Origin: Gammaproteobacteria bacterium
GTDB lineage: Bacteria; Pseudomonadota; Gammaproteobacteria; HK1
Direction: 5' to 3'
Assembly: GCA_022824305.1 (NCBI GenBank)
Contig: JAJEAD010000011.1
Span: 124,001-188,000, forward strand
DNA: 64,000 bases
Shown here piece by piece: positions 38,850 through 44,828 of the stretch. A model generated the notes under the pieces. It saw only the letters and a list, made by a program, of their open reading frames with translations. It had not been told where the DNA came from and made no database searches. The translations under genes were made by a program, and so were the position numbers. Positions within the stretch are counted from its first letter, which is position 1; every line of letters begins with the position of its first letter.

Positions 38850-39626
38850 TCAGGCCGCCGTGGCACTCATCGCCGGCACGCTGGACATGGCCGGCCCCTC
38901 GATCTGCGACAGGATGTAGCGCTCCAGGAAGCGCGCCGACCAGACCGCGACCGTGGCGTCATGGCGATCGCTGTCGGCTATCTGGCGCTCCGGGGCGTGC
39001 GCGCCGAGGTCGGTGCGCAGGTGGTCGCCGGGCTCCGACCAGGAGCGCACGGCTTCGCGGTCGACCTCGGGATGGAACTGCAGTCCGTAGGCCCGTTCCC
39101 CGTAGCGGAAGGCCTGGTTCGGGAAGTCGTCGCCGCGGGCGAGAAGCACTGCACCCGGCGGGATCTCGAAGCCTTCCTTGTGCCACTGGTAGACGTTCAG
39201 CTCCGGGGGGAACATGCCGGCGCCGGCCGGGGTCGCGCAGACGCGCCGGTAGCCTACCTCGTGCGCGCCCTGCGGGTGCGGCCCCACCCTCGCGCCCAGG
39301 GCCCGCGCGAGGAGCTGCGCGCCGAGGCACAGGCCGAGGAAGAGCCCGCCGTCCTCCACCCAGCGCCGGATCCAGTCGAGCTCCTCGCGCATCCAGGGCG
39401 AGTCGTCGTTCGCGCTCTGGGGTCCGCCGTAGACCACCACGAGGTCGTAGCTTCCGTCATCGGGCGGCAGGCGGTCTCCATGCGCGGGACAGGCCCACGT
39501 GACGCGCACTCCACGCTCGACGAGCTGGCGCTTGATCCTGTCTTCTCGGGAGCTCGAGTGCTTGACCAGCAAGACCCGCCCCCGGCAACCCGGAATCTCT
39601 CCGCGCATCCCAATCCGTCGCGTCAC
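38850..39626 (-). CDS. Class I glutamine amidotransferase-like protein (GuaA N-domain-like)
   Basis: A 258-residue protein. It has LVVVYGGPQSANDDSPWM, the nucleophile GLFLGLCLGAQLLARALGA, and the second catalytic motif YGLQFHPEVD. This matches the GMP-synthase-like stand-alone glutamine amidotransferases. The C-terminus (after residue 225) is a tail of low similarity. GTG at 39626 follows GGGGAGG. It sits upstream of fhs on the same strand. No partner domain is fused, so it may be a regulatory or general hydrolase. Confidence 0.83.
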   Translation of the reverse strand: MTRRIGMRGEIPGCRGRVLLVKHSSSREDRIKRQLVERGVRVTWACPAHGDRLPPDDGSYDLVVVYGGPQSANDDSPWMREELDWIRRWVEDGGLFLGLCLGAQLLARALGARVGPHPQGAHEVGYRRVCATPAGAGMFPPELNVYQWHKEGFEIPPGAVLLARGDDFPNQAFRYGERAYGLQFHPEVDREAVRSWSEPGDHLRTDLGAHAPERQIADSDRHDATVAVWSARFLERYILSQIEGPAMSSVPAMSATAA

Positions 39627-39788
39627 CGCCCCTCCCCGGGCGGCGCGCTAGCTTGAAGGCAGAGAGGGGCAAAAACAAGCCCGGCCTCGAGGCCTGTCCG
39701 CTGCGTGCAGAACCGCCTCCGGTCCGAGCGGGTCGTCAGTTGAGTGGTGCAGCGCAGCATACGGCCGCCGCCCAACTCCACGACAAGG

Positions 39789-39819
39789 TTGACATACACC
39801 AGCATCGTCGTGGAATAAT
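39789..39819 (+). promoter_or_regulatory. Promoter of the NTPase pair
   Basis: A perfect TTGACA (39789-39794) is followed by AATAAT (39814-39819) at 19 bases or GAATAA at 18. The DNA from 39781 to 39860 is visibly more AT-rich than its surroundings. A start near 39827 gives a ~30-base leader before the ATG at 39860. Confidence 0.55.
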
Positions 39820-39859
39820 TCATACAACCATTCTGCTTTACAACCAAATCGCAGTAGAC

Positions 39860-41089
39860 ATGACAAGTGCTCCTGAGTTCTACACCGGGGCTCCCGTCGA
39901 CCCGGTTGACCTGCGGTTCCGCGAGGATTTCATCGCGGAGCTGTGGCAAACGCTGCGCACCGGGCACGTGGTGCTCACCGCGCCCCGACGAACCGGCAAG
40001 CCCAGCGTCATGGATTACTTGCGCGACCATCCCGAGAGCGGGTTCTCGGTGGTCTCGATTAACGTCCAGGACCTGACCCATCCGGCCGACTTCTTCCAGG
40101 TGCTGCTCGACGGGTTCCATGATGCGCATCCGGAGTTCGTGCGCGATCGCCTTGCCGCAGGCTGGGGACTCGTCAGTGGCGTACTGGAAAAGATCGACAC
40201 GGTCGCGGTCGGCGGCTTCAAGCTTGCGCTCCGCGAGAGCGATCCCGACTGGGACACGAACTGGCGCCGCCACGGGGACACGTTGCTCGCTCGGGCCCGA
40301 AACACCGGAGCCCCGATTCTGTTCATCATCGACGAGTTTCCCGACATGCTGCTCAACCTGTCCCGGCAAGACCATGGACTGCTGCGCGGGTTCCTCGCCT
40401 GGTTTCGAACCCAGCGGCAGCATCCGGCACCGACGAGAGACTCGGTACGGTGGCTGGTGGGCGGCTCGGTCAATCTGGCCGGCACGCTCGACGCGCTCGG
40501 GCTGGTGGATCTCATCAACGACCTCGAAGAGGTTGCTCTTCCTCCGCTCACCGATGCGGACGTTGAGACCTTCGTGGCGGACATGCTGGGCGGCCGGGAC
40601 GTTCCCTGCGATGACGATGTTCCGCAGCGGCTCATCGCCCGCCTGGGGCGTCCCATTCCGTTCTTCATGCAGATGGCGACCCAGGCCCTCTACCGGTTGT
40701 GGAAACGCGAGCAACGCAGAATCGCCGGGACTGACGTCGATGCCGTCTTCGACGCGATGATTGTCGGTTCCGCCGCTCGTACCCGATTGCAGCACTTCCA
40801 CTCCCGGATCAGGCAGTACTACATCGAGCCAAAGGACTCGACTGCCCATGCCTTGCTCGGAAACATCAGCGTGAGCGAGTCGGGGCTGACTCGCGCAATC
40901 CTGCGGCAGGAGACGGAACGAACCCTGGTCGATCTCGGCATCGCCTTTCCGGCACTCGAACGAAGGCAGATGTTCAATGAGCTGTTGCTCGACCTGGAGA
41001 ACGACTTCTACATCGTCGAGGTCGAGGAGGGGCTCTACGATTTCGCCAGCGGCGTGCTGAAATCGTGGTGGAGGAAGTACCATGCCTGA
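39860..41089 (+). CDS. AAA-type ATPase with altered Walker A, first gene of an NTPase pair
   Basis: A 409-residue P-loop ATPase of the type found in archaeal-like and prokaryotic STAND proteins. The Walker A region TAPRRTGKPS lies near residue 40. It has proline at the position after lysine, where serine or threonine normally coordinates magnesium. Walker B is ILFIIDEFPD near residue 153. A winged-helix-like C-terminus follows. The ATG at 39860 follows a good promoter. The gene ends 8 bases inside the next one, so the pair is translationally coupled. It may be a sensor or regulatory subunit; that role is inference. Confidence 0.7.
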   Translation: MTSAPEFYTGAPVDPVDLRFREDFIAELWQTLRTGHVVLTAPRRTGKPSVMDYLRDHPESGFSVVSINVQDLTHPADFFQVLLDGFHDAHPEFVRDRLAAGWGLVSGVLEKIDTVAVGGFKLALRESDPDWDTNWRRHGDTLLARARNTGAPILFIIDEFPDMLLNLSRQDHGLLRGFLAWFRTQRQHPAPTRDSVRWLVGGSVNLAGTLDALGLVDLINDLEEVALPPLTDADVETFVADMLGGRDVPCDDDVPQRLIARLGRPIPFFMQMATQALYRLWKREQRRIAGTDVDAVFDAMIVGSAARTRLQHFHSRIRQYYIEPKDSTAHALLGNISVSESGLTRAILRQETERTLVDLGIAFPALERRQMFNELLLDLENDFYIVEVEEGLYDFASGVLKSWWRKYHA

Positions 41090-43808
41090 ACCGGCCCCCC
41101 ATGCGAATGTCGGCCTGTATCGCTCCGGCGTGACGAGCGCGGAGCGCCTGCGACACACGAGCGTCGCGCGTGAACACCTTCTCGACGACGCCATCGAATC
41201 CGTGCGTGGTTCGGCGGGCAGGAAGTCGAAGAACCACCTGCTGTTCATCGGTCCGCGCGGGATCGGCAAGACCCACCTGCTCTCGTGCATCGAAGACGCC
41301 GTTCAGTCGGACGAAGCGCTGAACGAGCGCGTCGTGGTCGTTCGCTTCCCGGAAGAATCGAACCGGACGCTCTCCTTCGCCGACTTCCTGATCGGCATGT
41401 GCGGAATACTCAAGGAGGTCCTCGAAGAGGATGGGCGGTGGACGGAGTTGTTCGCAACGGTGCAGACCGAAGAAGACGACGCGAAGGTCGCCGACACGCT
41501 GGTGCCCGCAATTCGCGAAGAGAATCGCAGGCACCGCCGGACCCTGCTCATCATGCTCGAGAACCTGGGCGAGATCCTGACCAGGCAGATCCGCGACAAG
41601 AATGACGTCGCTTCCCTGCGCAAGTTTCTCATGGCGGACAACGGTTGCCTGCTGTTGGCGACCGCACCGCTTCATTTCGACGGCATCACCGACATCGGGC
41701 AGCCCTTCTACGACTTCTTCGACGTTCAGATCCTGGAGAGCCTGAGCTTCGAGGAAACGCTTGAGGTCATCCGGCGGAATCTCGAGTGGGAAAGGCGTAC
41801 GGACGTTCTCGCAACCCTGGAAGACACGCGTCCCCGGCTGCAGGCGCTCTACCGCATGACGGGGGGCAATCCGCGGCTGACGATGATGCTCTACGAACTG
41901 ATCGCCCACGAATCGGTCACCAGCGTGCAGCGTCAGTTCCACCTCCTGCTCGATCGAATCTCGCCCTTCTACCAGGGCCGATTGAAGGATCTGCCACCCG
42001 GCCAGCGCGCACTGCTGGAGTGCCTGGCGAGCATGCGAGACCAGGAGAAGACGCCGGCCGCGATTGCCGCGCGAATGCGCATGAGTCAGCAGGAGACCTC
42101 GTCGCTGCTGAAGCGCCTCTCCGATGCGCACTACCTGCGCTCAGCCCCCCATCCGCGAGACCGGCGTTCACGCCTCTACACGATTCGCGAGGGTTTCTTC
42201 GATATCTGGCTCGCGATGAATCTCTCCCGCGGCGCGCGCAAGCGCCTGCCCTTCCTGCTCGAGTTCTTCAGTCTCTTCTACCCGAGCCTTGCTGCGCGCG
42301 AGGAGAAGCGCCGCCAATTGCGCGAGAAGCTTCTCAATGAGGACAGTAGCGACGCGGAAAGAGCTCTCGACTACCTGAGCGAAGCCGGCGAAGCAGCGGA
42401 GCGAGCGAGCGCGAAGTTCGACATGGCCATGATCTTCGCCCGCCGCGGAGTCGCCGAACAGGCAGCGAGCTATGTGCTCGAAGCCGCGCCTCTGGCCGGA
42501 GACGAAGTGAGCCGGTCGATTGCGCGCATTGTTGCGAGCACTCCGTCTGCACCTGACTATCTATCTGACATCGAGGAGATGATCGCAGCCTGGGAGACCC
42601 ACCGAAGCGGTGAGCTCGAAGAGTTCGCCCATCGGCTCGCGGAGATGGGGAAGGGGCTAACGCTCCAGACTTTCTCCGAAACCAGACTGGCCTTTCTGCG
42701 GGACACGCTGGAAAGCCTGGGCGATGCCAAGGCGCGAATCGCGCAACGCCTGAGAATTGCGACGGTGCTGATGGATCTCGCCCGCTGGGAGGAATGCGAA
42801 GAACAGCAGCGCCACGCGCTTGCCGAGGCAACGGCGCTCGACGACGCGGAGTCTGTAGCAGGAGCATCGAACGACCTAGCACAACTGTTACAGCGCACCA
42901 ACCGACTCAGCGAGTCCGAGCCGCTGATGCGGCGGGCGCTGGAACTCGACGAGGCCACGTTCGGCAGGAAACACCCCAGCGTGGCCGTTCGCTTGAACAA
43001 CCTGGCGACTCTGCTGCTTGACACCAACCGGATCCAGGAGGCCGAGCCGCTGATGTGGAGGGCGCTGGAGATCGTCGAGGCCACATTCGGCAAGCACCAC
43101 CCCGCCGTGGCAATCAACTTGAGCAACCTGGCGGAGATGCTAAAGAGCACCAACCGCATCCAGGAAGCGGGGTCGCTGATTCGGCGGGCGCTGGAGATCG
43201 ATGAGGCCACGCTCGGCGGGAAACACCCCAATGTTGCGATCCGCCTGAACAATCTTGCGACCCTGCTGCATGACAACAACCGGATACAGGAGGCCGAGCC
43301 GCTGATGCGGCGGGCGCTGGAGATCGACATGGCCGTCTACGGCGAGCAACACCCGACCGTGGCGACTCATTTGAACAACCTGGCGATGTTGCTAAAGGAC
43401 ACTGAACGCTATACAGAGGCCGAGCCGCTGTTGCGGCGCGCCCTGGAGATCAACGAAGTCGCCTTCGGCAACGAGCACCCGACCGTAGCGACTCATTTGA
43501 ACAACCTGGCCATGCTGCTACGGGCCACCAGCCGGACCGCGGAGGCCGAACCGCTAATGTGGCGCGCGCTGAAGATTGACGAGGCCGCCTTCGGGGAGCG
43601 ACACCCGAGCGTAGCGACCCGATTGTATAACTTGGCACAGATCCTGTGCTCCACTCGCCGGCTCAAGGAAGCCGAACCACTGATGCGGCGCTCCCTCGAC
43701 ATCTTCGAGTCCTTCGGTCGTCAGACCGGGCTCGAACACCCGCACTTCCAGCGCGCCAGCGAGAGCTACAAGGCCCTGAAGCGGACCATGGCGTCCGACG
43801 CAAAGTGA
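41082..43808 (+). CDS. NTPase with winged helix and TPR array, second gene of the pair
   Basis: A 908-residue protein. The N-terminal P-loop domain has Walker A IGPRGIGKTHLL near residue 57 and LLIMLENL near 155, where the Walker B acid is Glu. A winged-helix segment lies near residues 304-360 (AAIAARMRMSQQETSSLLKRL). A helical region follows. From residue 601 there are six 42-residue tetratricopeptide repeats of the kinesin-light-chain type, then a seventh partial one. STAND-like NTPases of this layout act as sensors in bacterial defence, signalling and regulation. The upstream coupled ATPase is probably its partner. Confidence 0.72.
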   Translation: MPEPAPHANVGLYRSGVTSAERLRHTSVAREHLLDDAIESVRGSAGRKSKNHLLFIGPRGIGKTHLLSCIEDAVQSDEALNERVVVVRFPEESNRTLSFADFLIGMCGILKEVLEEDGRWTELFATVQTEEDDAKVADTLVPAIREENRRHRRTLLIMLENLGEILTRQIRDKNDVASLRKFLMADNGCLLLATAPLHFDGITDIGQPFYDFFDVQILESLSFEETLEVIRRNLEWERRTDVLATLEDTRPRLQALYRMTGGNPRLTMMLYELIAHESVTSVQRQFHLLLDRISPFYQGRLKDLPPGQRALLECLASMRDQEKTPAAIAARMRMSQQETSSLLKRLSDAHYLRSAPHPRDRRSRLYTIREGFFDIWLAMNLSRGARKRLPFLLEFFSLFYPSLAAREEKRRQLREKLLNEDSSDAERALDYLSEAGEAAERASAKFDMAMIFARRGVAEQAASYVLEAAPLAGDEVSRSIARIVASTPSAPDYLSDIEEMIAAWETHRSGELEEFAHRLAEMGKGLTLQTFSETRLAFLRDTLESLGDAKARIAQRLRIATVLMDLARWEECEEQQRHALAEATALDDAESVAGASNDLAQLLQRTNRLSESEPLMRRALELDEATFGRKHPSVAVRLNNLATLLLDTNRIQEAEPLMWRALEIVEATFGKHHPAVAINLSNLAEMLKSTNRIQEAGSLIRRALEIDEATLGGKHPNVAIRLNNLATLLHDNNRIQEAEPLMRRALEIDMAVYGEQHPTVATHLNNLAMLLKDTERYTEAEPLLRRALEINEVAFGNEHPTVATHLNNLAMLLRATSRTAEAEPLMWRALKIDEAAFGERHPSVATRLYNLAQILCSTRRLKEAEPLMRRSLDIFESFGRQTGLEHPHFQRASESYKALKRTMASDAK
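42882..43637 (+). repeat. Six 126-base tandem repeats encoding TPRs
   Basis: Six in-frame 42-residue units (residues 601-852) share LNNLA, RALEIDEA and EAEPLM. A seventh, shorter unit follows. Neighbouring units are strongly similar at the DNA level, so recombination could change their number. Confidence 0.85.
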
Positions 43809-43883
43809 TCGGCAGCGCCTGCTCGGTTTCGATGGATGAAGGCGCGCCGCGCCGAATCTCCGCCCCATGCAAGGTCCGGCCCG

Positions 43884-44828
43884 TCAGTCGGATCTCCCAC
43901 CCGCTGCGCGCCGCGCACGCGCGAGTACCGTCTCGCGGTGCACCACGTAGAGGCCACTGCCGCAGATCAACGCCATCCCGGCGTAGGTGATCGGATCCGG
44001 CCAGTTGCCGAAGAGCACGACCCCCCACATGACCGCCATCGGCAACGCCACGTACTCGAAGGGCGCGAGCACCGCGGGCTGCGCAATTCGGTATGCCTGC
44101 GACATCAGGTAGCCGGCGAACCCGTTGAACACTCCGATGGCGACGAACAGCGCGGCGTCACCGAGCGAGGGAAGCGTCCAGGCACGCAGCAGGAAGGCGA
44201 GGCTCGCACCGTCCTCCGGAGCAAAGCGCCCGTCCCCCGCCACGAGGCCGATGGCCACGCTGGTGGCGATGAAGCCCGCCTGCGCGTAGAAGGAGATGGT
44301 GGAGGCCCGTTCGGTCGTGCCGAGCCGGCGGGTGACAATCTGCATGAGCGCATACGCCGCGGCCGAGAAGAGCGGGAGCAGGGCGATCAGCCGCAGGACG
44401 CCCTCGCCGGGGCGCAGCATCACGATCACCCCCGCGAGCCCGATGCACATTGCCGCCCAACGGCGCGGGCCGACCGTCTCGCGCAACACGAGTGCGGAGA
44501 GCGCGGTGATCAGCAAGGGGGCAACGAAGAAGAGCGAGGTGGCTTCGGCAATCGTCATCGCCGCGAGAGCCAGGTAGAACGTGCTGTTGGCAGCGACGAG
44601 GAGCGCACAGCGTGCCAGTTGCAGGCCCGGACGGCGTGTGCGCAAGAGGTGGATGCCGCCTTCGAAGCGCATCACGAAGAGTACGATCGCGATCGCGATG
44701 ACCGAGCGTACCAGGACGATCTCGTGCAGCGGATAGTCGCCGCTCAGCCACTTGATGAGCGCGTCCTGGAGGACGAACAGGGTGACTGCTCCGACGATAC
44801 AGGCTATCCCGGGAAACCTGTGATCCAC
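43884..44828 (-). CDS. EamA-family drug/metabolite exporter
   Basis: A 314-residue membrane protein with ten helices in two EamA modules. The first module has FVLQDALIKWLSG, AEATSLFFVAPLLITALSALVL, and GLAGVIVML; the second begins near AAAYALMQIVTRR. Family members export amino acids, metabolites or drugs. The GTG at 44828 has GGGAGGT 9 bases before it. An intrinsic terminator lies 23 bases upstream of the start on the same strand, which suggests a leader with regulated read-through. Confidence 0.83.
   Translation of the reverse strand: MDHRFPGIACIVGAVTLFVLQDALIKWLSGDYPLHEIVLVRSVIAIAIVLFVMRFEGGIHLLRTRRPGLQLARCALLVAANSTFYLALAAMTIAEATSLFFVAPLLITALSALVLRETVGPRRWAAMCIGLAGVIVMLRPGEGVLRLIALLPLFSAAAYALMQIVTRRLGTTERASTISFYAQAGFIATSVAIGLVAGDGRFAPEDGASLAFLLRAWTLPSLGDAALFVAIGVFNGFAGYLMSQAYRIAQPAVLAPFEYVALPMAVMWGVVLFGNWPDPITYAGMALICGSGLYVVHRETVLARARRAAGGRSD

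Follow-up and report, generated by a model that had tools for sequence, protein, structure and literature searches.

Two coupled STAND-type ATPase genes of a Gammaproteobacteria genome: a candidate anti-phage module without a name

Antiviral STAND proteins that have been characterised recognise phage proteins through variable C-terminal domains, TPRs included (PMC10907252). In the Avs and bNACHT proteins, a STAND ATPase is followed by such a variable sensor, and an effector is fused at the N terminus. Plant sensor-helper NLR pairs and the apoptosome ATPases of CED-4/Apaf-1 type are built on an NBD-HD-WHD core and carry CC, TIR or CARD signalling domains. The archaeal STAND ATPases of Pfam family PF01637 (2qen, 2fna/SSO1545) are single proteins, and BREX employs ORC/STAND ATPases with winged helices (BrxC and the iSTAND protein BrxB), degenerate partner ATPases included (PMC12839542).

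The locus described here is a cassette of two genes, A and B, located within a window of 64,000 nucleotides (the whole stretch of DNA analysed). B resembles Avs and bNACHT in the order of a predicted STAND ATPase and a C-terminal TPR array, but the cassette differs from them in pairing two STAND genes, in having no fused effector and in matching no PADLOC system. The cores of A and B are similar to those of plant NLRs and of CED-4/Apaf-1 type ATPases (Z 17-20), and the division between a sensor-bearing B and a sensor-less A recalls the plant pairs, by analogy only; unlike in those proteins, no CC, TIR or CARD domain is present. A is similar to the archaeal ATPases over the whole-chain fold, winged helix included, although these have neither a partner nor a TPR arm. 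Unlike BREX, the cassette is a two-gene unit, with no PglZ, methylase or BrxA partner. Its features are listed below.

38850-39626, minus strand: flanking gene, glutamine-amidotransferase-like, named by reading the sequence
39777-39814, plus strand: imperfect inverted repeat TCCACGACAAGGTTG-N8-CAGCATCGTCGTGGA, putative operator, 12/15 paired, over the -35 region
39789-39819, plus strand: sigma-70-type promoter, -35 TTGACA (39789-39794), 19-bp spacer, AATAAT (39814-39819)
39860-41089, plus strand: gene A, 409 aa, predicted STAND/NLR-type ATPase core (NBD, helical domain, winged helix), without sensor or effector
39998-40003, plus strand: Walker A codons K47-P48 of A, AAG CCC (AAG ACC in the relative L003)
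41082-43808, plus strand: gene B, 908 aa, predicted STAND/NLR-type ATPase with winged helix and TPR array
41994-42188, plus strand: winged-helix (MarR/ArsR-like) domain of B, about residues 305-369, candidate operator binder
42936-43691, plus strand: six regular 42-aa kinesin-light-chain-type TPRs, B residues 619-870, putative sensor
43809-43819, plus strand: end of DNA homology with relatives, about 10 bases past the B stop
43884-44828, minus strand: flanking gene, EamA-type transporter, named by reading the sequence

Both reading frames of the original prediction, which had described two coupled NTPase genes with their own promoter in AT-richer DNA, are present as described. They overlap by 8 bases (ATGCCTGA), and the best start of A is the ATG at 39860. 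TTGACA begins at 39789, and the G+C content of the upstream region (the first 83 bases) is 43.4%, against 62.6% for the cassette and 68.4% for the window. Comparison with relatives over the ATPase parts gave dN/dS values of 0.15-0.21, i.e. purifying selection. These values, the retention of the pair in dozens of genomes and a DNA homology that starts and ends with the cassette place it beyond chance.

Pfam profiles found AAA_22 in A, weakly (E 8e-5), and AAA_22 (8e-7), a MarR_2 winged helix over the Pfam cut-off (residues 303-363) and TPR_12 in B; the profile of the B winged helix matches ArsR/MarR structures. Together with the six regular repeats, the winged-helix and TPR matches bear out the earlier description of B as a STAND-like NTPase with a winged helix and six TPRs. 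The description of A as an AAA-type ATPase agrees with its weak AAA_22 match but was incomplete: judged from a profile-profile comparison (328 columns aligned, E 1.6e-19), A and B are paralogous ATPases, A corresponding to the core of B. In both proteins the core is preceded by no more than about 20 residues. Walker A and B motifs are intact in B and in the homologues of A other than the window copy.

AlphaFold models (pLDDT 86 for A, 84 for B residues 1-480) were compared with known structures by VIA-align. The model of A matched 2qen (Z 25.3, 332 residues, 3.8 Å), the NRC4 resistosome (Z 20.2, 325 residues, 3.7 Å) and CED-4 (Z 17.9, 307 residues, 3.9 Å), and that of B matched 2qen (Z 20.3, 324 residues, 4.0 Å), NRC4 (Z 19.6, 330 residues, 4.8 Å), RPP1 (Z 19.0, 307 residues, 3.9 Å) and CED-4 (Z 18.8, 334 residues, 4.3 Å). 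Archaeal STAND ATPases are the top matches of A, and 2qen is also the top match of B, which PF01637 matches only below its cut-off; ORC/Cdc6 and TnsC are further matches. Since the similarity to archaeal STAND ATPases, plant NLRs and CED-4 covers the NBD, helical and winged-helix domains, the models place both proteins among STAND/NLR-type NTPases, with the P-loop NBD, helical domain and winged-helix core of that superfamily. Its superstructure-forming sensor repeats are represented by the six TPRs in B and are absent from A.

No effector domain of Pfam was found in A, B or 19 homologues of B, in keeping with the earlier statement that none is fused. No named system had been recognised in the pair either, and PADLOC 2.0 and NCBIfam indeed assign none. 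Searches of open-licence papers turned up none on the pair; PADLOC is dated 2023, so a name may have been given later. The best NCBIfam match of B is the TPR protein of the FxSxx-COOH system (NF040586); it scores 108 bits where the cut-off is 300, and is confined to the TPRs. Membership in MADS (mad8) was considered and rejected: against PDLC04140, B scores no better than E 0.008, and this generic AAA profile finds matches in 184/185 genomes and in all controls. An apparent 528-aa N-terminal fusion on the A of L019 was likewise discarded as a spurious open frame in GC-rich DNA, because the homology of A begins at a Met inside that frame.

In order to evaluate the pairing, 369 genomes of the class were searched independently with A and with B. 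The same 11 genomes were found, and every B match adjoins an A match. Among relatives of the source genome, and likewise within its class and its phylum, B directly follows essentially every full-length A; the exceptions are degraded, namely an A fragment in L082/L095 and a truncated B on a Methylomonas plasmid. A contig scan with one genome per species produced 13 loci, all with B beside A or beside an A remnant. The two genes, which the original prediction had proposed to search as a conserved pair, do co-occur, and no match to a characterised regulator pair was found. A is cut short in L012 and deleted or broken in L014 and L015, where B is present; the TPR frame of B is broken in L003 and L009; on the Methylomonas plasmid (L069), B is truncated just past its P-loop. 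Distant B-like proteins stand alone on some plasmids. Given the loss of A in L014 and L015 and the truncation of B on the Methylomonas plasmid, the system is often dispensable.

The MAGs with a close form of the cassette (70-91% identity) bear the labels Gemmatimonadota, Latescibacterota, Alphaproteobacteria and Gammaproteobacteria, and a good number of them have sponge-metagenome style names, as read from record titles. The window B is 87% identical to a Gemmatimonadota copy, versus 82% to a copy in its own family. DNA homology starts at 39777-39823 and stops at the end of B or about 10 bases past its stop, and the flanks differ. By these sequence comparisons, the cassette spreads horizontally as a two-gene unit. 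L003 (labelled Gemmatimonadota) and L014 (labelled Latescibacterota) have the cassette and several flanking genes in common, so these two phylum labels may not be independent; one of them may be wrong, or a whole island may have moved. No clean empty site was found through the EamA orthologue, which stands in a different context in relatives; in one of these (L063:274-1626), a PtuA-like (Septu) gene lies near it. Viral and phage collections contained no match to the cassette.

The genes next to the cassette in the window are, by their sequence, housekeeping and not defence genes: PADLOC matched none of the ten neighbours. No BREX cluster (PglZ, methylase, BrxC) is present, and an all-against-all comparison of neighbourhoods found no third gene common to the loci. 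The listing of neighbours, also proposed earlier, did reveal defence genes around several distant members (Qat, restriction-modification, Gabija). On a Moraxella plasmid, the pair lies beside QatD and an N6-methylase, and a type I methylase and a GajB-like helicase are found beside distant pairs; in the close group, AbiE, McrBC and a reverse-transcriptase defence gene are among the neighbours. Among the nearest neighbours of distant pairs, 5/10 had a PADLOC match, versus 1/10 controls, a modest enrichment in this matched sample, in which some matches are to generic helicase or methylase models. As far as gene content can tell, the neighbourhood supports a defence role without proving it.

Three further loci were recorded. 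The source genome has a second, distant A-B pair (L030, G000:C38:101000-119000; 28%/25% identity), with a DUF1156/HmaB-like methylase and, identified by eye, vsr-like and C5-cytosine methylase genes as neighbours. The Methylomonas plasmid (L069:7995-17197, CP157006.1) carries its orphan A and truncated B beside type I restriction-, Abi_2-, SLATT- and CD-NTase-like genes, named by eye. On a Sphingobium plasmid (L111:1043-6610, NZ_CP128177.1), a lone B-like STAND-TPR protein is found beside an annotated cyclase with Pycsar effector and an AbiE pair.

Newly found here is that, throughout the family, A is preceded by long inverted repeats and by a sigma-70 promoter close to the consensus. Most close relatives have a 16-bp spacer and a -10 element of type TATANT. 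A sigma-70 match of at least 10/12 was obtained for 34/44 A upstreams versus 7/277 neighbour-gene upstreams, and an inverted-repeat score of at least 10 for 14/44 versus 7/277 (Fisher p 6e-9); p-values are indicative, since the sites are not independent and the control upstreams include genes inside operons. Equivalent or longer repeats are found upstream of A in many relatives, with arms up to 20-25 bp (L024, L092, L100), and overlap the promoter in the close group, L092 and L100. As in MarR-type autoregulators, a palindrome, the putative operator, lies at the pair's own promoter. In the three genomes searched it occurs nowhere else, and that of the window is the sole occurrence in its own genome at up to 3 mismatches. 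This makes it likely that the pair autoregulates, most simply through the winged helix of B on the putative operator.

Within the TPR array of B, the groove columns are the most variable. Positions 2, 9, 12 and 13 have a mean entropy of 2.69, versus 1.11 elsewhere (p 2.5e-4; 37 repeats from 11 close loci, the comparison columns including buried ones). The B orthologues of L034 and L035 have cores 96.5% identical and 10 versus 27 repeats. Concerted evolution of repeats in close-group arrays is slight (74% identity within, 70% between), so the argument for a fast-changing array rests on these two orthologues. The TPR arm of B probably recognises invaders. The L034/L035 genes are also a natural pair for the study of array expansion; in L035:7998-19161 (G012), two A-B pairs stand tail to tail, and one B (1745 aa) has about 27 nearly identical 43-aa TPRs.

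The copy in the window may itself be inactive, given the GKP of its A Walker A motif, which reads GKT or GKS in every other homologue compared, and its 19-bp promoter spacer. That it is a decayed, non-functional copy is a real possibility, though not the favoured one, and is compatible with any function in intact relatives; several other relatives have frameshifts or deletions. Against decay, neither frame is interrupted, purifying selection acts on both (dN/dS about 0.18 for A against L003), and an inactive STAND partner can stay functional, as does BrxB in BREX (PMC12839542). The substitution may disable the window A, or this protein may act as an inactive partner in the manner of BrxB; a single-base MAG error in the codon is also possible.

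Taken as a whole, the cassette is best explained as a mobile two-gene STAND (NLR-like) module whose role is most likely anti-phage. The mechanism that we infer comprises autorepression, invader recognition, an A-B complex and a terminal step. In the resting state A or B, the likeliest being B with its MarR-like winged helix, would sit on the palindrome and curb the strong promoter of the pair. B would be the sensor, its TPR groove binding an invader protein and its ATPase core opening up from a closed state; A, the sensor-less paralogous partner, would co-assemble with B, by analogy to sensor/helper NLR pairs. Two outputs are favoured: the A-B assembly may interfere directly, by binding DNA in the manner of ORC or TnsC or as an oligomer that arrests growth, or it may recruit an effector of the host or of a neighbouring system. 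That the cassette is an effectorless sensor-helper STAND defence pair is given about an even chance, the missing effector, the non-defence window neighbours, the modest neighbour enrichment, the GKP in A, the loss of A or B in relatives and the lack of phage or viral matches counting against it. More tentatively, and rather doubtfully, it may represent a new class: a paired sensor-helper immune system with no enzymatic effector, in which the A-B assembly itself would be the output (its winged helices could, for example, bind DNA and so block the replication or transcription of the invader), encoded by a 4-kb cassette whose autorepressed promoter works across phyla.

The same winged helix, over the MarR_2 cut-off and similar to ArsR/MarR structures, and the long promoter palindromes could instead belong to a signal-responsive regulator pair of MalT/AfsR type, with the TPRs of B sensing a ligand and the winged helices controlling cellular genes. 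This appears unlikely, as the putative operator is confined to the pair's own promoter in three genomes, no neighbour gene is conserved, a winged helix is part of every NLR core, and the rapid change of the TPR array suits invader recognition better than a fixed inducer.

An isolated two-gene unit that moves between phyla and has an autoregulation-like promoter would also fit a selfish, addictive cassette, autoregulated as type II toxin-antitoxin operons are, in which a harmful protein is neutralised by its partner; but in such systems neither gene is lost alone, whereas B occurs without intact A in L014 and L015 and A without intact B in L069, and both genes encode large paralogous ATPases, which makes this improbable. 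Even less credence is given to a regulatory remnant of a larger ATPase system, either BREX-like ORC/STAND components or TnsC-like transposition ATPases, parted from its partners. The structural matches to ORC/Cdc6 and TnsC, and the use of STAND/ORC proteins such as BrxB by BREX (PMC12839542), speak for it; the neighbourhoods have no conserved partner gene, the loci share no transposase, and the conservation of the promoter implies that the unit is self-contained.

Should the cassette prove to be a defence system, bacteria would have a counterpart of the plant sensor-helper NLR pairs, and the question would arise how a complex of NLR type can act when it has no effector. The fast-changing TPR arrays provide a natural library for finding the sensed ligand, and autoregulation can be tested directly at the conserved promoter palindromes. 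The presence of nearly the same cassette across marine (sponge-type) MAGs of several phyla would mark gene exchange in such communities.
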